Origin: a virus
IMG/VR virus record: IMGVR_UViG_3300046522_000201
Span: 1-42,517 of that record
DNA: 42,517 nucleotides
Reading direction: 5' to 3' (one strand)
In this document: positions 575-12,753 of the stretch, one piece after another
How the letters are laid out: each line of letters starts with the position of its first letter
Position numbering within the stretch: the stretch's first letter is position 1
Notes under the pieces: model-generated
The model's input: only the letters and a program-made list of their open reading frames with translations
What the model was told of the DNA's origin: nothing
Database searches by the model: none
Translations under genes and position numbers: made by a program

Positions 575-1704
575 TTGACTGATCCTTCGGTGTTAGGGGT
601 TGCCGGAGCGGCGGACGGCTTGTTGGCGTTGAGGCGGTCAAGGCGGTCGATCTCAGCCAGGATCAGGGCGCCGGCTTTAACGAGGTTGCGGCGGTCGTCG
701 GCGGGCTTCCACCAGCCGCCATCCCAAGGCCAGTCGTTGGGGATTCGCTCAGGGCCGGTGCAATCGCCGTAGGTGGCGTAGCAGGCGGCAGCAAACGAGA
801 GTTCGCCCCCGTCGTACTGGTCGTCGTTCTCAGGCGTCCAGCCTTCCTGCTCGACCTGACGGCGGCGCTCGGCCAGCACATCTCGCGCGGCTTGGGTCTG
901 ATCGTCTGCCGGTGCCGCTGCGCTCTCGGTAGACGCAGCAAGTGCCTTGTACCGTTCGATGCAGGCGTCAGCAGCTTTCAGTTTCTCGGACACTTCGCAG
1001 TAGGCGACGTACCACTTGCTCGGGTGCTCTTCTTTTACCGCTACCAGTGCGCCGCCCACAGCAGGCAAGACAGGCTTGGCGGGATGGGTGGCGAACATGC
1101 GGCGCGCCTCGGCGCGAATGTCGTTCATGACGACGCGGCGGGTGCGGTGGTCGCCCAGCAGCGGCGTGTTTCCGTACTCGCGCACCAGCTTTTCGAGATC
1201 ATCAGCCGCTTGCACTGCGCTGCCCGCCGCCTCGACAGCCTGGTCAGCCAGGGCAGAGCGCAGCACTCCGATCGCTGCGGGTACCGCCAGCGGCACCTTC
1301 GTGGAATCCAGTTCGGCCAGCATGTCCGCAGCGATCGTCGCTGCCCTGGCCAGTCCCGCTTCCGGGCAACCGGCGGCGTGCCGGGCGTCAGCCCGTGCAT
1401 GGCATGCGCTGCAGCGGAAGCCCGTCGACGTGGTCAGGGCTTGATCGTTCGGCGTGATCGCAGGTGCAGGGTCGCCAGGCAGAGTGTGGGCCTGAGCCTT
1501 CGACAACAGCCACTCTTCCCCCTCGTCGGACGCATCGAAATAGGCCTGATCCTCAGTCACCTCTTCGGTAGCCGGGAAAGCACCGCCACCGACTTCTATC
1601 CCAGCTTCGAGCAGCTGGAGTTTCCACCCACCGCCGACACTCTGATCGCGTGGAGTGATCATGTACGAGTAGTGTGGCGCGTTGGTATTCACCTTTTCCA
1701 TCAC
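571..1704 (-). CDS. Phage hypothetical protein with conserved C-terminal WPW/WWKP domain
   Basis: A 377-residue protein. The C-terminal ~95 residues (about 268-360) carry a motif set seen in many phage proteins: ERRRQVEQEGWTPENDDQ, AAACYA, WPWDGGWWKP, then RRNLVKAGALILAEIDRLDR. That domain has no role I can name. Residues ~90-115 hold a CxxC...H...C cluster (RCSACHARADARHAAGC) that could bind zinc. The middle is low-complexity, Ala-rich and helical, so the protein may be a mosaic of two phage modules. It overlaps its neighbours on both sides by ATGA junctions, which suggests translational coupling in the leftward early operon. Confidence 0.75.
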   Translation of the reverse strand: MMEKVNTNAPHYSYMITPRDQSVGGGWKLQLLEAGIEVGGGAFPATEEVTEDQAYFDASDEGEEWLLSKAQAHTLPGDPAPAITPNDQALTTSTGFRCSACHARADARHAAGCPEAGLARAATIAADMLAELDSTKVPLAVPAAIGVLRSALADQAVEAAGSAVQAADDLEKLVREYGNTPLLGDHRTRRVVMNDIRAEARRMFATHPAKPVLPAVGGALVAVKEEHPSKWYVAYCEVSEKLKAADACIERYKALAASTESAAAPADDQTQAARDVLAERRRQVEQEGWTPENDDQYDGGELSFAAACYATYGDCTGPERIPNDWPWDGGWWKPADDRRNLVKAGALILAEIDRLDRLNANKPSAAPATPNTEGSVK

Positions 1705-2501
1705 GCAGCCTCCTGCTGACCACCGTGCATCTGCGGAGTCGGCGCCGGCGTGCTCGAATTGAAGTTGCCCATGTCCAGGCCGTGCAGCAAGTAGTGGCGG
1801 AATGCCTCGACGCCGCCATGGGCAACCTCGTGCAGCACGGCGTGATAGAACTCGATCGCTCGGGCGGGCGGGACGTCAATCACGGTGAAGCGGCGGCAGC
1901 ACATGTCCAGTGGCAGGAAGTCGGCTGCGTGGCTCAGGTAGATGAAGTTGAGCGTGTTTGGGACGGTGCGCGCTTCCCGGCCGCGGCTCTCGATGGTCAC
2001 GGAGTTGTTCGTGATGTATGACTTCATTCGGGCGAGGTGCCGCGGTGACACTGGACCTTCGACGATGACCAGGCCGCCGTCACTGGCCCAGTCGTTGAAG
2101 ACGTTGTGCAGCTGGTCGGCGCGAATCCAGGGCGCGTCGTCATTGAAGAGCTGTGCGACGACGTACTTCAGGAAAAGGCGCTTTCCGGAGTGGCGGCCGC
2201 CATTGAAGATCAGCGCGGTCGACATCTTGGCGCGAGGGTTGCGCAGCTGGTAGGCCAGCCAGCGGCACAGCCAGATGCGCATGTTCTCGTCCCAGTCGAC
2301 CAGGTGCGAGAGCAGGGCCATGATGTTCCCGAATGGAGCAGGGCTGGTGTCGACCGGGGTCAGGCATGTGCGCTGCAGGCCTGCGCGGATGCTCCGGACA
2401 GCTTCTACAACGATCGCTGACCAGCGGCGTACTCCAGCGACGAATACGGCGATGCTGCCGGCGAATTGTTCTTCTATTTTTTTCATGTCGGTCCTGTTCA
2501 T
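1701..2501 (-). CDS. Degenerate SF3-helicase-like (DUF5906-type) protein
   Basis: A 266-residue protein resembling the C-terminal NTPase part of phage/plasmid primase-helicases. Residues ~70-200 show the order expected for that fold: a P-loop-like GGRHSGKR, the sequence WIRADQLHNVFNDWASDGGLVIVEG in the Walker B position (positions ~127-151), KSYITNNSVTIESRGR as sensor/polar region, and RRFTVIDV near the end. The P-loop lacks the Ser/Thr that should follow GK (Arg is there), so ATP hydrolysis is doubtful. No primase domain is present. A full primase/helicase is encoded at 7597..10125, so this may be a regulatory relic or an accessory. ATGA overlaps on both sides. Confidence 0.6.
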   Translation of the reverse strand: MNRTDMKKIEEQFAGSIAVFVAGVRRWSAIVVEAVRSIRAGLQRTCLTPVDTSPAPFGNIMALLSHLVDWDENMRIWLCRWLAYQLRNPRAKMSTALIFNGGRHSGKRLFLKYVVAQLFNDDAPWIRADQLHNVFNDWASDGGLVIVEGPVSPRHLARMKSYITNNSVTIESRGREARTVPNTLNFIYLSHAADFLPLDMCCRRFTVIDVPPARAIEFYHAVLHEVAHGGVEAFRHYLLHGLDMGNFNSSTPAPTPQMHGGQQEAA

Positions 2502-2773
2502 AGCTCTCTCGGGATTCTCGGGGTGGGTAAATTGTTCGAAATCAGGGGCCAGTCGTTGTGCTGCTTGATCCAGGGTGCTCGGCCCTCGGCCAGCTCGACC
2601 AATGCGGCCGTGTTCTCCTGCAGCTCGCCGGCGAGCGCGGGCATCGGGTCAAATCCGAGCCGGATGCTCGCGGCCCGCTTTTTCCAGAAGTCGATGCTCT
2701 CCGACAGATCGCGGCGATCCTTGATAAGGGCGCGGACGATCCCACTGATTGCGCCCTCGCTGAACGCAGTCAT
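2498..2773 (-). CDS. Small hypothetical early protein
   Basis: A 91-residue, mostly alpha-helical, charged protein (IVRALIKDRRDLSESIDFWKKRA), without signal peptide or cysteines. No family recognised. It is tightly coupled: its start overlaps the stop of the ParB-like gene and its stop overlaps the next start, both as ATGA. A helper of the ParB-like or helicase-like neighbours is possible from position alone. Confidence 0.65.
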   Translation of the reverse strand: MTAFSEGAISGIVRALIKDRRDLSESIDFWKKRAASIRLGFDPMPALAGELQENTAALVELAEGRAPWIKQHNDWPLISNNLPTPRIPREL

Positions 2774-4758
2774 GCCGCGGCCGCAGGGTCGGTCAAACAG
2801 CTGCTAGAAGTCGGGTACGGCCATGAGGTGCCGGCGTATGCCGCTGCCGGCGCCTTCCCGTCCGCCACGGCGTCCAGCTCGGCTTGCTTGGCTGTGCGCC
2901 AAATGCCGCCATATGGGACGTAACCGAGTCGCTCAGCGACCTCCACGAACTCGGCCGCCAGGCCGTCGGTGCCGCGGGCGATGACGGCTCTGGCCAGGTC
3001 GTTGATCCGACCGCCGTTTTGTTGAATGAATTCCACCAGGTGATGCCGCTTCATGGACGAGACATCGATCCAGTCCGCCGGCAGGGGCTGCGGGGCTGCA
3101 GGTGCGGCTGGGGTAGCCTGTGCCGTTTTCTTCGTGGCAGGCTTCTTCTTGTCTTTTTTCGCCTGGGCCTCGGCGTCGACCTCAGCACGGATCCTCTTCG
3201 CGTCGACCTTGGTCCGTGCTGCAAAGGCGAGCATGTTCTCGGGCTTCGATTTCGACTCGGTATAGACGTTGATCTCGAGCTCCCGGCACAGCGAACAGTC
3301 GCGAATGAACTGGTTCAACTGGGCAGGGGTGAGCGCGTCGACGGCCGCCTTGATGTTCGCGCGGCGTGGATAATCGAATGTTGCCTCAGTCCAGCCATAC
3401 AGTTCGATCAGGAATTTGGTCGGGATCGTTCCCCATGGCAGGTTCTCGAACATCTGCACGGCGACCAGGCGAAGATCGTCGTTGACCAGGTTCATCATCA
3501 AGGACGCATCGTGCATCGCGCGCAGCAGGCGCTTCCGGTACTCGCGCTCGAGCTTGGCCGCAGCCTCCATCTCGCGCTCGCGCGCGCTGCTCGAGGTGAC
3601 CTTTTCCGGTACCGGCAACCCTTTCGCCTGGAGAGCCGGGCCCAGCACGTCCATCTGGATCACGTAATGAAGCGAATTGTCGTGCGGGCTTATTAGTAGC
3701 GTCGGCTGCGGCAGTTTCGTACCAAGCATCTGGCGGTACGTGCGGTGCTTTTTGTCTGACCAAACTTCCTTGTCGACGGAAACAAATCCGCCTTTGAGGT
3801 CGCTGTAATAGGTAGGCATGACCTTTTTGGCAGCATCGCCTGACAGGACTGCAGTGCCAGCTTCTTCCGCCTCCAGCTTGGTACGCTCGACGTGGCGTTC
3901 GCCCTTGGCCTTGAAGCAGGATGGGTCAGTGCAAACGTCTGCACTTATGTCGGCAAATACTTCCGGCTGGTTGCCGGCTCGCTTCGGGCACGTAGTGCAA
4001 GGTCCGGCTGCCGGCAGCAGAGTCGCATCGATGATCTCGAACACGGCCTTTTTCAGGTCGAGCATGTAATTCGACTCGATGTGCCTGGCGGCCGCACGGA
4101 AAGACATGGTGCCTTGCCATCCGCCCGTGATCTCCAGTACGCATTTCTCCTGCAGGGCTTTCACAGGAATGCGAGCGATAAGCAGGGCGATCGACGCTGA
4201 GATCTTGTTTTCGAAGAATTCGTCGCGCGCCAAGTTGGTCAAGGCGCACAGCTTCAACCGGCCATAGATGTACGAGCGGCTCTTGCTGACCTCCTCGGCC
4301 AGCTGGTCGGCGTTATACCCGTGCTGCTGCATCAGCAGCTGGTAGCCCTCCGCCTCCTCGATCGGGTGAGGGTCTTCGCGCTGCAGGTTCTCGAGGATGC
4401 GGATCTTCGCCGCGTCCAGGTCGCTCAGGTTGCGGCACAGGGCCGGGATCGTGGCAAGGCCTGCGATGATCGAGGCGCGGTAGCGGCGCTCGCCGGCGAC
4501 GATCTCGTATTCCTCCGGCGCCTCGACTGTCGGCGTGACCGGGCGGATCAGGATCGGCTGGGCGACGCCCATCGCCTCGATGCTGGCGGCCAGTTCCTGC
4601 AGCGCGGCCTCATTGAATCGCTTGCGGTTGTCGGGCGAGCGGCGCATGCGCGCCAGTTCGTACAGCCCGTACACGCCCTGGTCGGTGACGAGCTCGTCGG
4701 CGACGATGCGTTGTTCGGTCGGCACCGATGCCGCGATGTCAGTAGTAATGGTAGTCAT
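2770..4758 (-). CDS. ParB/RepB/Spo0J-family DNA-binding protein
   Basis: A 662-residue protein. The N-terminal ParB domain covers residues ~35-130, with the CTP-binding motif GERRYR at 89-94 and the ENLQRED..PIEEAEGY signature at 123-139. A helix-turn-helix follows (DQLAEEVSKSRSYIYGRLKL, 151-170). ParB proteins bind a palindromic parS site and slide as CTP-dependent clamps. A Cys cluster (CTTC at 254-257, CTDPSC at 276-281) may bind zinc. The long C-terminal half is helical with a Lys/Ala/Pro-rich linker (~530-560). At 662 residues it is about twice the size of chromosomal ParB. No ParA ATPase gene is visible anywhere in the circle, so a classical partition role is doubtful; gene regulation or a packaging/replication role are alternatives. 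First large gene of the leftward operon. Confidence 0.88.
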   Translation of the reverse strand: MTTITTDIAASVPTEQRIVADELVTDQGVYGLYELARMRRSPDNRKRFNEAALQELAASIEAMGVAQPILIRPVTPTVEAPEEYEIVAGERRYRASIIAGLATIPALCRNLSDLDAAKIRILENLQREDPHPIEEAEGYQLLMQQHGYNADQLAEEVSKSRSYIYGRLKLCALTNLARDEFFENKISASIALLIARIPVKALQEKCVLEITGGWQGTMSFRAAARHIESNYMLDLKKAVFEIIDATLLPAAGPCTTCPKRAGNQPEVFADISADVCTDPSCFKAKGERHVERTKLEAEEAGTAVLSGDAAKKVMPTYYSDLKGGFVSVDKEVWSDKKHRTYRQMLGTKLPQPTLLISPHDNSLHYVIQMDVLGPALQAKGLPVPEKVTSSSAREREMEAAAKLEREYRKRLLRAMHDASLMMNLVNDDLRLVAVQMFENLPWGTIPTKFLIELYGWTEATFDYPRRANIKAAVDALTPAQLNQFIRDCSLCRELEINVYTESKSKPENMLAFAARTKVDAKRIRAEVDAEAQAKKDKKKPATKKTAQATPAAPAAPQPLPADWIDVSSMKRHHLVEFIQQNGGRINDLARAVIARGTDGLAAEFVEVAERLGYVPYGGIWRTAKQAELDAVADGKAPAAAYAGTSWPYPTSSSCLTDPAAAA
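3929..3944. repeat. 16-bp palindrome, copy in the ParB-like gene
   Basis: GTGCAAACGTCTGCAC, one mismatch to the palindrome at 21456, in the stretch coding the Cys cluster of the ParB-like protein. Confidence 0.75.
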
Positions 4759-5453: not shown

Positions 5454-5744
5454 CTAAAACGGGGGCGGCTCATCCCTACAGGGGGGAGGGCTGTTCAGAT
5501 CGATTTCGCGAAACTCCAAGATTTCGAGTTGCATCAGTGCCAGGAGCCGGTGTGTTTGAAACGGAGCGTACGCACGAAAGCCATTTGGCTCGATCGACAC
5601 GAGCATGACGCCGGCCGTTGGGAAGTAGGGTTGTAGTCGCCGGAGCAGCTGGTCTCCAGGTCCTGCCAAGGTGTACATCGAATCAACCAGCCCGATTCCG
5701 ATCGGGGCGCCGTAAGGGTCGATTTCAGCTATCTGAACCCTCAA
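5454..5744 (-). CDS. Hypothetical protein co-transcribed with cI
   Basis: A 96-residue soluble protein of unknown function. Its start overlaps the cI stop (ATGA) and a terminator follows its own stop, so it is the second gene of a two-gene repressor operon and should be made in the lysogen. Features: a beta-rich N-terminus (MRVQIAEIDPYGAPIGIGLVD), a helical middle and a Pro-rich tail (SPPPCRDEPPPF). Superinfection exclusion or repressor modulation are possible only by position. Confidence 0.65.
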   Translation of the reverse strand: MRVQIAEIDPYGAPIGIGLVDSMYTLAGPGDQLLRRLQPYFPTAGVMLVSIEPNGFRAYAPFQTHRLLALMQLEILEFREIDLNSPPPCRDEPPPF

Positions 5745-6445
5745 ATGAAGTCTACTTGCATCCGCACAACGCGGCCTACAATCTCTGTATCTTCCTCGAC
5801 TGGGCGACGGCTGTAGGCCGGTAGTCTATTATCGGACGCCAGGTACCAAATGCCGCTCTCACGCTCCAACCGTTTTACCACTGGCTTGTGGTGATGGTTT
5901 ACTGCGAACAGATCGCCGTCAACAGGCTCGCGATCGCCGGTGTTCACGATGACGACGTCGCCCTCACGCATCGTTGGATACATACTCTGGCCCTTCACTT
6001 TAAGCGCTACCAGTTTTGCCGGGTCCAGGCGCTTGGCATGTACCCAATCTAGCGGCAGGCTTAGGGCAATGCCATCGTCGTATTCGAAATCACCATCAAC
6101 ACCATCCACGCCCGCGTGGAGCACCCGCGTAAGCATCCGCACCCCTACAAACTTCTCACTGTCTTTATCGTCGACCGAGATCCGGAGCATTTGTGCCGGC
6201 GTCTCATCGCTATCCTGTTTCGATGCCCGCTTCATGGGCCCGGTTCCTTCAAACAGCCACTGGAACGCTACGTTGCACGCTTCAGCCAAGGGCTGGACGG
6301 TATGAGCTTCAGGCCCTTTTTTGCCGACCCCTTTGAGAATGCGGTTAATCGTCGGTTGCGGCACGCCTGAAAGACGCGCAAGCGCGTTTTGCGACGGTAT
6401 GCCTGCCGCTTTCATCGCTTCGTCGAGTCTATTCGAGATAGTCAT
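5741..6445 (-). CDS. CI-type phage repressor, S24/LexA-like autopeptidase
   Basis: A 234-residue protein from the ATG at 6445; a longer frame to 6493 exists but would start inside the operator region. The N-terminal helix-turn-helix (XRE type) covers ~residues 5-60 (QNALARLSGVPQPTINRILKG). The C-terminal S24 domain has a cleavage pair Ala111-Gly112 (LHAGVDG), catalytic Ser154 (KGQSMYPT) and Lys191 (VVKRL), all present, so RecA-stimulated self-cleavage and SOS induction are expected. No Shine-Dalgarno precedes the start. The -10 box ends 6 nt before the ATG, so the mRNA is probably leaderless as for lambda cI from PRM. It faces a cro-like gene across three operator-like sites. Confidence 0.92.
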   Translation of the reverse strand: MTISNRLDEAMKAAGIPSQNALARLSGVPQPTINRILKGVGKKGPEAHTVQPLAEACNVAFQWLFEGTGPMKRASKQDSDETPAQMLRISVDDKDSEKFVGVRMLTRVLHAGVDGVDGDFEYDDGIALSLPLDWVHAKRLDPAKLVALKVKGQSMYPTMREGDVVIVNTGDREPVDGDLFAVNHHHKPVVKRLERESGIWYLASDNRLPAYSRRPVEEDTEIVGRVVRMQVDFI

Positions 6446-6451
6446 CTGAAG

Positions 6452-6481
6452 ACTATACGCAGACGTATATGTTGTATGCAA
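6452..6481 (-). promoter_or_regulatory. cI promoter (PRM-like)
   Basis: On the minus strand, TTGCAT (6481-6476) and TATAGT (6457-6452) are separated by 18 bp. Only six nt (CTTCAG) lie between the -10 box and the ATG, so transcription should begin at or next to the start codon. The -10 box overlaps the operator at 6453..6470, which would allow autoregulation. Confidence 0.7.
6453..6470. promoter_or_regulatory. Right operator site nearest cI
   Basis: CTATACGCAGACGTATAT is a near-perfect dyad of the form CTATnCRnnnnYGnATAG with one outer mismatch. It overlaps the cI -10 box. Confidence 0.65.
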
Positions 6482-6485
6482 GTCG

Positions 6486-6503
6486 CTATTCATTTAGGTA
6501 TTG
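6486..6503. promoter_or_regulatory. Right operator, middle site
   Basis: CTATTCATTTAGGTATTG has an exact left half and a right half with two mismatches. It starts 23 bp before the site at 6509 and 33 bp after the site at 6453. Confidence 0.5.
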
Positions 6504-7391: not shown

Positions 7392-7600
7392 AACTCGGTG
7401 CAACGCTCGCAGAACTGGTCGACCTGGCGGAACTCGCCACGGCGCCGACCTCGGTAGGACCTGCAGCCGTGATGTTGCCCCTCGCCGAGCGTAACCGCCC
7501 ACGGGTACGCGTGATGCGCGAAGGTGCTCTTGACTACCAGACGATCCCGTCCCGTATGGGCGACGTCCTGGTGCCGCATAAGGTAAAGGCAGCTGCGTGA
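7388..7600 (+). CDS. Small hypothetical protein upstream of primase
   Basis: A 70-residue protein with ATGA overlap to the YmfL-like gene; its stop overlaps the GTG start of the primase gene. It has an Ala/Leu-rich helix at the N-terminus (LAELVDLAELATA) and a basic middle. No family recognised. The tight coupling suggests it is a real translated gene that may help load or start translation of the primase. Confidence 0.65.
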   Translation: MKLGATLAELVDLAELATAPTSVGPAAVMLPLAERNRPRVRVMREGALDYQTIPSRMGDVLVPHKVKAAA

Positions 7601-10125
7601 CGCTCGACGATTTTGCTTCAGTTGGGCGCGCAGCGCTCAACTCAATTGAAACGCTTCTCGCCGGATGGTTCCCGCAAGGTGTGCGGCAGGGCGTCGAGTT
7701 CTGCATCGGTTCCAGGTCGGGCGAAGCTGGCCAGTCCCTGCGCATTCGCCTCACCGGCGAAAAGGCCGGGGTTTGGTCCGATTTTTCTGCCGACGGCGAA
7801 GCCGGTGGCGACCTGATCTCGCTTTATGGCTATATCCACGACCTACGCCCTGGACAGGCCTGCGCAGCCCTCGCCGAGCAGCTCGGCGTCCAGTTGACCA
7901 AGTCGGACGGCCTGCGCAACCCATCACGGCCGATTTCCATTTCGGCGAAGCCTAAAACCTCGCTAAACCCCGCGCCAGCGCAAGCGGGCAAAGGGGTAGA
8001 AGCACCTGCCGGCGATAAAAAAACACGTACGCCCTGGGCACCGATGTTGCCCGTTCCGGCCGATGCCGGGCCGTACCCGAAGGCTCACGTCGTGCGCGGC
8101 AAGCCCGAAGCACTGTGGGAGTACCGCGATACCGAAGGCCAGCTCCTGGGCGTGATCTATCGGTTCATTCGGTCCGACGGCAAGGGCAAGGAGGTCCTAC
8201 CGTGCATGTTCGCGCGCCACCCGGACACGGGCGCGCGCGAATGGCGGTGGATGGCCTTTCCGGAACCGCGGCCGCTGTATCTGCGCGGGCCATTCCGGCC
8301 GGATCTGCCCGTCCTCGTGCTCGAGGGTGAGAAGTGTGTCGACGCGGCAGATGCGCTGCCGTTGATGCACGAGTCCTTCGATGTGGCCTCGTGGCCGGGT
8401 GGCGGCAAGGCCGTCGGTAAGGCCGACTGGTCGCAAATCCGGGACCGTGACGTCATCCTGTGGCCCGATGCCGATGCAAAGGTTTACAAGGAAGGCCATG
8501 AGCATGCTGGCCAGGTGATGCCCGAACACCAGCAGCCGGGTATGGTGGCCATGAACAAAGTCGCCGAGATCGTTCGTAGCCAGAACTGTCGCGTGTTCTT
8601 CGTCGACATCCCTGCACCTGGCGCCGTGCCAGACGGATGGGACGTCGCCGACTTGATCGAGGGCGGCGCCGGTGCCGACGAAGTCTTTGCCTGGGCGACG
8701 AAGCTCCGTGCCGCGCCGGTAGAAGTTGAAGATGACCTGATCGCCCCGATGCAGGATGACGCCGTGCCGGCTTGGATGGACGAGCAAGGCGCCGCGCAGT
8801 TCGATGCGGCTTCTACCCCACGTCCTGCTAGCGCGGGCAAGCGGCCACCGAAGAACCTGCGGGACATGCTGATCCAGACCGGAAACGGTGGCGTAAAGGG
8901 ATGCCGCGAAAACGTGTATACGGTGATGGAGAACGACGAGCGCCTGATCGGCCTGGTCGGGCTGGACCAGTTTTCCGGCCTGCAGGTGAAGCGTCGCAAG
9001 ACGCCGTGGCCGAGCGAACCGGGCGAATGGACCGAATCGGACGACTTCCGCCTGGGCATGTACATGGCGAGCAAGCACAGCCTGCTGCTGGCATCGATTG
9101 GTGACATCGAGCGCGGCGTCGCCCAGGCCGCCCGCGAGCACGCCTTCAACCCGGTTGTCGAGTATTTCGACCGCTGTGCCGGGATGTGGGACGGCCAGCC
9201 GCGGGTGGCAACGGCGCTCAGCACCTACTGGGGCGCTGCCGACTCCGAGTACCTGCGCCTGGTGGCCACGATGTTCTTCATCGGGATCGTGGTGCGGGGT
9301 TACCGGCCAGGCGTGAAGAACGACCACGCCCCGGTGTTCGAGGGCGGGCAGGGCCGAGGCAAGTCGACGGCACTGAAGGTGTTAGGCGGCGATTGGTTCG
9401 CCGACACGCCTTTCCGCATGGGCGAGAAGGATGGCTACTTGAGCATCCAGGGCGTGCTGCTGTACGAGGTGGCCGAGCTCGAGCAGTTCAACCGATCGGA
9501 GGTCACCGCGATCAAGGCGTTCATGTCGTCCACGGTCGACCGCTTCCGCGAGCCGTACGGCCGCCGGATGAAGAACATGCCGCGCCGCTGCGCCTTCGCG
9601 GCCACGACCAACGAGGACGCCTACTTCAAGGACTCGACGGGCAACCGCCGCTTCTGGCCGGTCGAGACAGGCCGCCTGGACATCGACGCTTTGATTGCCG
9701 ACCGCGACCAGCTGTTCGGCGAAGCGATCGCGATGATGAACGCCGGCGTGCAGTGGTGGCCAACGTACGAGCAGCAGGTGCGCCTGATCAGTCCGATGCA
9801 GGAAAGCCGCGAGATTCCGGACCCGTGGCATGGCCGGATCTGGGAGTACCTGGAGGGCACAGACGCCGACGGCAAGGCCACCCTGGCATTGAAGATCCAG
9901 AAGGTGACGGCCCGTGAGCTGCTCACCAGGGCACTGCATTTCGAGCTGTCGAAGATGGGCCCAGCGCGAGCGGAAACCATGCGTATCGGCGCCATCATGC
10001 GCAAGCTCGGCTGGACGAAGGGCCGTGAGACGGAGGGCGCGCGCGAGTACTTCTACGAGCGCCCAGCGAAGGCGCAGGCCGTCGAGGCTGCACCAGGGGA
10101 GGCGGATGATGATCTGCCGTTCTAA
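7597..10125 (+). CDS. VapE-type replicative primase/helicase
   Basis: An 842-residue replication protein starting with GTG. The N-terminal part (1-110) has a primase-like fold (GVEFCIGSRSG, GVWSDFSADGEAGGDLISLY). A TOPRIM-like segment follows, with LVLEGEKCVDAADAL near residue 240 and ILWPDADAK near 290. The C-terminal virulence-associated-E/SF3-type ATPase begins around 480 and contains the Walker A motif GGQGRGKST near 583-591, the Walker B-like LLYEVAELEQF, and the arginine-containing STGNRRFWPVE. This order matches phage primase-helicases that open and prime a nearby origin, and a large inverted-repeat structure lies directly downstream (10262..10467). It should be the main replication initiator, in place of lambda O/P. 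Confidence 0.9.
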   Translation: MTLDDFASVGRAALNSIETLLAGWFPQGVRQGVEFCIGSRSGEAGQSLRIRLTGEKAGVWSDFSADGEAGGDLISLYGYIHDLRPGQACAALAEQLGVQLTKSDGLRNPSRPISISAKPKTSLNPAPAQAGKGVEAPAGDKKTRTPWAPMLPVPADAGPYPKAHVVRGKPEALWEYRDTEGQLLGVIYRFIRSDGKGKEVLPCMFARHPDTGAREWRWMAFPEPRPLYLRGPFRPDLPVLVLEGEKCVDAADALPLMHESFDVASWPGGGKAVGKADWSQIRDRDVILWPDADAKVYKEGHEHAGQVMPEHQQPGMVAMNKVAEIVRSQNCRVFFVDIPAPGAVPDGWDVADLIEGGAGADEVFAWATKLRAAPVEVEDDLIAPMQDDAVPAWMDEQGAAQFDAASTPRPASAGKRPPKNLRDMLIQTGNGGVKGCRENVYTVMENDERLIGLVGLDQFSGLQVKRRKTPWPSEPGEWTESDDFRLGMYMASKHSLLLASIGDIERGVAQAAREHAFNPVVEYFDRCAGMWDGQPRVATALSTYWGAADSEYLRLVATMFFIGIVVRGYRPGVKNDHAPVFEGGQGRGKSTALKVLGGDWFADTPFRMGEKDGYLSIQGVLLYEVAELEQFNRSEVTAIKAFMSSTVDRFREPYGRRMKNMPRRCAFAATTNEDAYFKDSTGNRRFWPVETGRLDIDALIADRDQLFGEAIAMMNAGVQWWPTYEQQVRLISPMQESREIPDPWHGRIWEYLEGTDADGKATLALKIQKVTARELLTRALHFELSKMGPARAETMRIGAIMRKLGWTKGRETEGAREYFYERPAKAQAVEAAPGEADDDLPF

Positions 10126-10261
10126 ACACTCGGGCGGCCTCGTGCCGGCGAATCACCAGGGATCGTGGGCGCCATGCGCGCAGGCGGAAAAGGTGCGTTC
10201 GTCGACAAAGGGCGCAGCTCGTTTCGTCCAACGTCGTCCAGCCGTCCAACCTCGCGATTTT

Positions 10262-10467
10262 GAGGATAGACGGCTGGAACCCGCATGGATATTGGGTTTC
10301 CTAACCTCCCAACCTCGCCAACCTGCACGTACGCATGCACACCCGCGTATACGTGCGCGACGGGTCCGGCAACGGCTCGGTGCTTCTGGTGAAACTTTAA
10401 AACAGGTTAGGAAGGTTAGGAGGTTAGGAAGGATCAGCATCCATGCGGGTTCCAGCCGTCCAACCTC
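10262..10467. other. Large inverted repeat with iterons, candidate replication origin
   Basis: The perfect 22-bp arms 10269..10290 and 10439..10460 face each other. Pairing continues outward (GAGG 10262 / CCTC 10464) and inward through the repeats CCTAACCT/CCAACCT (10300-10324) against three copies of AGGTTAGG (10403-10428). The loop contains a second hairpin, GCACGTA (10325-10331) / TACGTGC (10350-10356). No gene fits in 10126-10512. It follows the primase/helicase gene directly, as origins often do. Other readings: a structured RNA or a transcription attenuator. Confidence 0.6.
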
Positions 10468-10512
10468 TCCGCTGACCTTTCAAGGGTTGGACGAATTGAG
10501 AAAGGACCAGGT

Positions 10513-10752
10513 ATGAGCAAGGGCAGCATGAGGGATCAAATGCCGACCGTCGCAGCTTGGATCGACGGGATGCGGGAAGCGTTCGGCAAGGATCACATCG
10601 ACCGGCAGATACGGGCCGGCATGAAGGGGCAGCCCGTGTTTTACGCCAGCGAGAACGGGCACGCGGTGGGGACGAAACCGAAGCGCGGCTGGCGGGTGCT
10701 GAAGGATGAGCGAGGGAATCCGACCAGGGTAGTGGACGGCGAGGGCAAGTGA
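10513..10752 (+). CDS. Conserved small phage hypothetical protein
   Basis: A 79-residue, basic, soluble protein (MRDQMPTVAAWIDGMREAFG ... YASENGHAVGTKP ... GWRVLKDERGN) with ribosome site AAAGGA upstream. Proteins with this pattern (short helical start, then FYASENG and a C-terminal basic strand) are frequent in phage early regions, but no role is known to me. It lies between the candidate origin and the Q-position gene. Confidence 0.7.
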   Translation: MSKGSMRDQMPTVAAWIDGMREAFGKDHIDRQIRAGMKGQPVFYASENGHAVGTKPKRGWRVLKDERGNPTRVVDGEGK

Positions 10753-11708: not shown

Positions 11709-11763
11709 GCACCCTCGGGTGCTTCCAGCCCTGCCAGGCATTGCGCCGGCTGGGCATTTTTTT
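11709..11763 (+). terminator. Hairpin plus terminator 2 of the late leader
   Basis: A tight hairpin GCACC-CTCG-GGTGC (11709-11722) is followed by a CCAGCC (11725-11730) / GGCTGG (11748-11753) hairpin and seven T (11757-11763). The first could be a recognition hairpin and the second a terminator; the loop of the second is long, so its strength is uncertain. Confidence 0.55.
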
Positions 11764-11859
11764 GGGAGGCCGTGCCACGCAAGAATTTCAACGACGAAAG
11801 GTGGTGGTCCTATCTCGATCCGCGGGAAAGCGGGGGATACAACGCTTCATGTTCGTTTC

Positions 11860-11882
11860 GCCCGGTCATCCCGGGCTTTTTT
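11860..11882 (+). terminator. Terminator 3 of the late leader
   Basis: GCCCGG / CCGGGC stem (11860-11876 including the loop TCATC) followed by a T-run to 11882. With the two hairpins upstream it gives three stops between the late promoter and the first late gene. No gene is visible in 11578-11997. Confidence 0.8.
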
Positions 11883-11968
11883 ATTCGCAGGGCACGGCGC
11901 CATCTTAGATCGAACGGCGTCGTACCCCAAGCAATTTGTTGGACGGAACTCAGCCGAAAGTTGTGGCT

Positions 11969-11984
11969 GTGTAGACGTCTGCAC
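11969..11984. repeat. 16-bp palindrome, copy upstream of first late gene
   Basis: GTGTAGACGTCTGCAC, one mismatch to the palindrome at 21456. It ends 13 bp before the ATG at 11998. Confidence 0.75.
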
Positions 11985-11997
11985 TCAGGAGAACCCC

Positions 11998-12753
11998 ATG
12001 GCCGTTGACGTACGCGATGCGGTCAGGCAGATCACGGCAGGCATGCTGGTCGAGGAGAAGCAGGTCAAGTTCGCCACGCGTGTCGCCCTGACCCGTGTCG
12101 CCAAGGTGGCCGAGGGTGCCGAGGTGAAGGAGATGCGCGACATCTTCGATCGCCCTACACCTTTCACGATGTCGGGCCTGTTCGTGCGCCCGGCTACCAC
12201 CACCAACCTCACGGCTGAGGTAAAGCTGAAAGACTTTGCCGGCAAGAGCAGCTCGCCGGCGGCCACCTACCTGGCGGCGCAGATCAAGGGCGGCATGCGC
12301 GGCGAGAAGCGTTTCGAGCGTGCGCTGCGGTCGGTCGGTGCACTGCCACCTGGCTACCGTGTGGTGCCTGGGACCGGTGCAGAGCTGGATGCATACGGCA
12401 ACATGAATCGCGGCCAGATCGTCCAGATCCTTGCGTACTTCAGAGCATTCCCGGAAGCGGGCTACAAGGCGAACATGACCGACAAGAAGCGAGCAGCCCT
12501 TGAGCGTGGTTCGAAGACGAAGCAGGGCATCTCCTACTTCGCCGGCAGGCCTGGCGATCGCCTCCCGTGGGGCATCTACCAGCGCGTGCACTTCGCGCGT
12601 GGTACCGCCCTCAAGCCTGTGATGATCTTCGTGCGCAGCGTGCAGTACCAAGCCATCTTCGACTTCGAATACGTGGCGGAGTCTGCCGTCGAGATGAACT
12701 TCCCGGCGGAGTTCACCCGCGCCTTGGCCGAGGCTCGGGCCACCCAGCGTTGA
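11998..12753 (+). CDS. Conserved phage protein, first late gene (possible tail-completion protein)
   Basis: A 251-residue protein from the ATG at 11998 with a good ribosome site (AGGAGA, 11987-11992); the open frame extends upstream through the terminators but has no start signal there. Features: N-terminal helix with FATRVALTRVAKVA, then EMRDIFDRPTPFTMSGLFVRPA, a central MNRGQIVQILAYFR and a C-terminal LKPVMIFVRSV. The pattern recalls minor tail/tail-completion proteins of the lambda gpZ type, but that is a weak shape match. It lies upstream of the terminase genes and of the possible cos site. Confidence 0.65.
   Translation: MAVDVRDAVRQITAGMLVEEKQVKFATRVALTRVAKVAEGAEVKEMRDIFDRPTPFTMSGLFVRPATTTNLTAEVKLKDFAGKSSSPAATYLAAQIKGGMRGEKRFERALRSVGALPPGYRVVPGTGAELDAYGNMNRGQIVQILAYFRAFPEAGYKANMTDKKRAALERGSKTKQGISYFAGRPGDRLPWGIYQRVHFARGTALKPVMIFVRSVQYQAIFDFEYVAESAVEMNFPAEFTRALAEARATQR

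Follow-up and report, generated by a model that had tools for sequence, protein, structure and literature searches.

A probable replication origin of inverted iterons 3′ of a VapE-type primase-helicase gene in a temperate phage

Origins beside initiator-helicase genes

In phage P4, the crr region lies 3′ of alpha, a TOPRIM primase-helicase gene, and carries 8-bp type 1 repeats (TGTTCACC), two forward at 9-bp spacing and then inverted, around a central segment that is AT-rich. It is made up of two direct repeats of 120 bp; a separate ori1, which shares the crr iteron, is required by P4 as well. In SaPI/PICI elements, the origin is found 3′ of rep, the initiator-helicase gene, and two iteron sets flank a putative AT-rich melting region. 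The SCCmec helicase Cch2 binds, through its C-terminal domain, direct and inverted repeats located 3′ of its gene. Replication of pRN1 requires a 100-bp stem-loop 3′ of orf904, and for phage BIP-1 the proposed origin is likewise a stem-loop, located after the replication gene (PMC4234260). Given the P4 crr, PICI and pRN1/BIP-1 parallels, the class of mechanism is already known; by analogy, the locus described here is a phage variant of it with an alternating, Z-prone centre. A literature search found no description of such an origin layout in this phage group.

The 42.5-kb DNA analyzed comes from an IMG/VR virus record; the whole of it is called the window below. Its plus strand encodes an 842-aa VapE-type primase-helicase, followed by TerL, portal, protease-capsid and tail genes, while the minus strand carries genes for a CI-type repressor (5741–6493) and a ParB-like protein (2770–4758). 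The source virus is a temperate tailed phage, since its genome encodes a CI-like repressor. With capsid and tail genes in the window, the rep-ori arrangement does not belong to a satellite of the PICI/SaPI type. A 266-aa P-loop protein encoded beside the ParB-like gene (1701–2501, minus strand) is a second, separate relative of the DUF5906/VapE-like primase family, on the strand opposite to the main primase-helicase.

The gene of the predicted initiator (7597–10125, plus strand) matches the Pfam VapE-like domain (E=4e-69) and is annotated by PHROG as DNA helicase/primase; the Toprim and CHC2 Pfam models match weakly in some homologues. An AF2 model (mean pLDDT 76) comprises an N-terminal CHC2-like and TOPRIM part, a VapE/SF3-like AAA+ helicase and a C-terminal winged helix. 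The closest solved structure is that of Staphylococcus aureus PriRep1 with dsDNA (PDB 7pds), at E=1e-42 by sequence and 3e-24 by fold; for the N-terminal part, the match is the Aquifex DnaG primase 2au3. Together, the AF2 model, Pfam and the DnaG fold place TOPRIM primase, SF3 helicase and C-terminal winged helix in one protein, as in P4 alpha; a direct comparison with P4 alpha gave no hmmsearch match and an hhalign probability of 0.5%. The helicase is homologous to PriRep1 of the SaPI/PICI systems, but the present protein has a TOPRIM rather than an AEP primase and is encoded by complete phages. pRN1 and BIP-1/BPP-1 likewise differ in having an AEP-type primase, as well as different iterons, and the pRN1 host is archaeal. 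Cch2 is another member of the helicase family (Primase_Cterm/D5_N) and has only three AAGTG iterons.

Inverted iterons around an alternating centre

The primase stop codon at 10125 and the next plausible start codon, an ATG at 10513, are separated by a gap of 387 bp that is crossed by spurious open reading frames. Two nested inverted repeats occupy 10262–10467 within this gap, directly 3′ of the initiator gene, the position of the origin in the SaPI/PICI elements. The outer arms, 10269–10290 and 10439–10460 on the plus strand, pair perfectly over 22 bp and extend to 29 nt with 93% complementarity (10262–10290/10439–10467). The inner pair, 10298–10325 with 10403–10430, is 28 nt long and 86% complementary. 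Inside it, the left triplet of iterons (10299–10324, plus strand) is formed by CCTAACCT at 10300, CCCAACCT at 10308 and GCCAACCT at 10317. The right triplet (10404–10429, minus strand) is inverted relative to the left and contains AGGTTAGG three times, at 10404, 10413 and 10421, so that three CCTAACCT-like units face three AGGTTAGG units, at 8–9-bp spacing on both sides. A preliminary description of this DNA had reported the perfect 22-bp arms, the three inner repeats per side, the nested second hairpin and the gene-free gap, all of which hold.

All four occurrences of CCTAACC in the window fall inside the hairpin, in contrast to P4, where ori1 and crr share the iteron. Folded as single-stranded DNA, the 271-nt region reaches −75.3 kcal/mol, compared to −40.2 ± 3.6 kcal/mol for shuffled sequences (z = −9.8), and none of 200 shuffles was as stable. 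Mini-hairpins built of the same unit flank the giant hairpin on both sides. The left one (10237–10278), with two inverted iterons, CGTCCAACC and GATAGACG, is kept in the alignment; the right one (10457–10493) has the iterons CGTCCAACC and GGTTGGACG.

The segment between the repeats holds an alternating purine-pyrimidine tract, of up to 59 bp, and an A-rich patch. The tract is prone to Z-DNA formation, and its runs of 19 and 16 bp (10324–10359) rank first and second in length among the strictly alternating runs of the window. Transition bias in the tract is 0.68 versus 0.40–0.53 in the spacers, values that come from non-independent pairs, and the right iterons are similar at 0.71. The patch, 10391–10403, adjoins the right iterons, is A-rich in the alignment too and is a candidate melting site. 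The locus differs from the SaPI/PICI origins in its alternating centre, in the greater length of its continuous dyad and in carrying an additional folded element, which we call element E (10154–10195). The mini-hairpins, alternating centre, A-rich patch and element E had been missed in the preliminary description.

We conclude from comparison with relatives and known systems that 10262–10467 is very probably the replication origin of the phage, bound by the C-terminal domain of the helicase. Recognition by the VapE-type primase-helicase, which the preliminary description had proposed, is strongly supported by the strict linkage to the helicase gene, the concerted change of the iterons, the crr/PICI plan and the homology to PriRep1. 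In the proposed mechanism, the C-terminal winged helix of the 842-aa protein would bind the units at their 8–9-bp spacing, and the two inverted triplets would seat two helicase rings face to face. Binding, together with negative supercoiling, would open the alternating and A-rich centre. The helicases would then load and travel outward, the TOPRIM domain would lay the first primers and a host polymerase would take over. The giant hairpin itself would be mainly a by-product of mirror-image binding sites, with the dyad apparently maintained beyond single units. Promoter and terminator scans of the region were empty, and cumulative GC skew has no turning point at the dyad, which counts against an origin and is uninformative.

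Conservation and concerted change of the dyad

Searches at the DNA level found nothing similar to the region in phage or plasmid collections, and the comparison was therefore made through the protein, with 28 viral relatives of the primase and 13 from bacterial genomes. In each of the 23 close IMG/VR relatives, the dyad comes directly after the VapE gene; a close relative with the same protein that lacks the region was looked for and not seen. Nearly every homologue examined, to protein identities as low as about 30–40%, has the layout immediately 3′ of its VapE-type gene. A conserved motif just upstream of the dyad occurs in 46 viral contig stretches, 45 of which have a VapE gene directly adjacent; the remaining contig begins 76 nt ahead of the motif. 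Scanning with nothing but a dyad motif returned 19 contig stretches, every one of them beside a VapE gene, and 200 genomes drawn from the order yielded further, more distant VapE loci with inverted arrays. The same plan with other units is seen in Pseudomonas phages U5 and LPPA36, Marinobacter phage PS3, a Comamonas phage-plasmid and Bordetella phage BPP-1; the module is carried by complete phages of Betaproteobacteria, Pseudomonas and Marinobacter.

Breadth was assessed with 29 representatives (<75% C-terminal identity), ranking the downstream 600 nt within each locus. Inverted 8-mer pairs placed these 600 nt in the top 5% in 23 of 29 representatives, and the length of the longest alternating run did so in 22 of 29. 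Signals are weak or absent in the most divergent representatives (VarioGold, Aval, L103, L110, L116 and Mica), while L034 fails for alternation only. In genome G092 (L101/L099), a run of N lies exactly over the dyad after the VapE gene, which suggests either that the hairpin breaks the assembly or that the stretch was masked.

This fixed neighborhood also bears on the idea that the array is a DNA packaging site (cos/pac) or is bound by terminase. The terminase genes lie about 2.4–3 kb downstream and iteron-like terminase sites exist in lambda, but the dyad adjoins the VapE gene rather than terminase and the annotated cos end of VarioGold is elsewhere. Moreover, the genes just downstream vary: the 79-aa gene at 10513–10752 (plus strand), outside the origin, is swapped for other genes in several relatives. 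We consider a packaging role highly improbable. A ‘minor tail protein’ gene (PHROG 1924; 11719–12753) sits between the origin and the terminase genes, and a like-named gene is found in the same place in U5 (L094 5526–6263), an odd location for a tail gene.

We give as little credence to a parS site or repressor operator array bound by a phage ParB-like protein or CI. Genes for both proteins are present in the window, but no match to the ParB-like gene was found in either the complete U5 genome, which has the dyad, or the L012 contig, which also has it and may be a fragment. In addition, no CCTAACC occurs near the repressor gene.

Within one phage the iteron units match on both sides of the dyad, while between phages they differ. 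The units include GTCCAACC/CCTAACC, GTCTAACC, GTCCAACAT, GTCCTACC, GTCCGACC, TTCCATACC, TTCCACACC, TTCCTAACC, GTCCCATT, GTGACCACC and GGTCACCCC. Examples are TTCCATAC in L039 and TCCATACC in L102, each with 12 copies, and GTCTAACC in L048 and CGTCCCAT in L106, each with seven. In BPP-1, which is near-identical to BIP-1, the stem after the primase gene (L131 608–711) is composed of inverted 9-bp iterons, TTGCCTCGT. This make-up is not remarked upon in the accessible part of the stem-loop paper (PMC4234260), and the BIP-1 stem-loop, read in BPP-1, can be recast as the same iteron plan.

In the inner iterons, plus-strand mismatches are more often A.C (97) than G.T (46). The non-iteron part of the outer arm has 47 G.T and 34 A.C mismatches, close to shuffled values. 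This pattern argues against a plus-strand RNA stem, and the dyad appears to vary as inverted double-stranded protein sites would. An RNA structure in the 3′ UTR of the primase transcript, whether an attenuator, a processing hairpin or a protein-binding hairpin, is accordingly very unlikely. It would fit the orientation of the region, which is that of the next genes and probably leads to co-transcription into them, and the upstream element E does behave as a plus-strand fold. However, A.C mismatches in the giant dyad are as frequent as G.T or commoner, no terminator-like site was found, and distant homologues retain iterons and alternation, not a stem sequence. Rfam returned nothing above threshold for the dyad or element E, with one chance miRNA match (E=0.59).

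The preliminary description had named arm conservation with compensatory changes as a check. Outside the iterons, the outer arm shows 33 two-sided changes in an alignment of 42 distinct dyads, versus 15.4 in shuffles (0 of 500 as high), figures that are supportive and not probabilities because the shuffles do not remove relatedness. The position pair 10277/10452, on the other hand, varies independently. A cruciform or single-strand hairpin might itself be recognized, on the model put forward for the pRN1 stem-loop. This would explain the two-sided changes at non-iteron arm positions, and replication of pRN1 requires an intact stem-loop (PMC4234260). For the present dyad, covariation is only suggestive of such a need for stem integrity. 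Because some position pairs vary independently and distant homologues lose the perfect arms but keep the inverted iterons, we regard this explanation as unlikely, if less so than the others. The ‘cruciform regulator’ of the preliminary description is not needed, as inverted protein-binding sites explain the pairing best; extrusion under supercoiling may nonetheless occur.

Binding of the iterons by the helicase is also consistent with the phage U5 of Pseudomonas aeruginosa. Its N-terminal part is divergent (21% identity to the present protein), yet the helicase (41%), the C-terminal domain (36%) and the origin layout persist, which points to the helicase–C-terminal module as the probable reader of the iterons. 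The recognition-helix region differs in L048/L063 and L085, as do their iterons, representing one or two events. A tie between iteron change and single C-terminal-domain residues is suggestive at best, and domain-wise comparison of the homologues found no clean C-terminal swap. Indirect support for autonomous replication by such a segment comes, by analogy, from Comamonas odontotermitis ‘plasmid unnamed2’ (NZ_CP083453.1; L134/L135). This circular 36.9-kb phage carries the VapE module with integrase, capsid and terminase genes and no other annotated replication-initiator gene, and its iterons, TGTTCACC, are identical to the P4 type 1 repeat.

The comparison yields a testable rule for origins in a large, mostly unstudied phage group: the origin would lie directly 3′ of the VapE helicase gene, where inverted iterons surround an alternating tract.

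Element E and the proposed opening of the origin

Element E is a 42-nt sequence between the primase stop codon and the dyad (10154–10195, plus strand), with the form CACC-AGGGAT-CG-variable stem-CG-GAAAA-GGTG. No variation is seen in its strands AGGGATCG and GCGGAAAAGG across 35 distinct sequences, most of which were gathered with these strands as the search pattern; the close relatives found via the protein all carry them too. The stems covary (0.297 versus 0.160 shuffled, 0 of 500), and the score collapses if they are slid by 1–3 columns. Sixteen G.T mismatches compared to one A.C indicate that the plus strand folds, as RNA or single-stranded DNA. Single-sequence folding was unremarkable, so that the support for the element comes from covariation.

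In Acidovorax phage Aval, the loops are kept by eye and the closing stem is wholly changed, to GAGC/GCTC; a covariance model of element E did not recover this copy. When 399 Burkholderiales genomes were searched with a model of the element, two copies turned up, each located 3′ of a VapE gene, and the element is linked only to such genes. It is absent from the Nitrosomonas relatives and U5, and is therefore not essential to the origin plan.

The alternating tract and element E look new, and both are concrete targets for studies of origin melting and priming. Element E may be a priming signal or an origin-linked RNA. We propose only tentatively, as a joint reading that is possible but rather doubtful, that the origin opens at a long, selectively maintained, Z-DNA-forming alternating tract and that element E is either an origin-linked RNA or a specific single-strand signal at which the TOPRIM primase begins priming. 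One contig (L059; IMGVR 3300044475_000179) carries element E duplicated in tandem, at 3327–3364 and 3501–3538.
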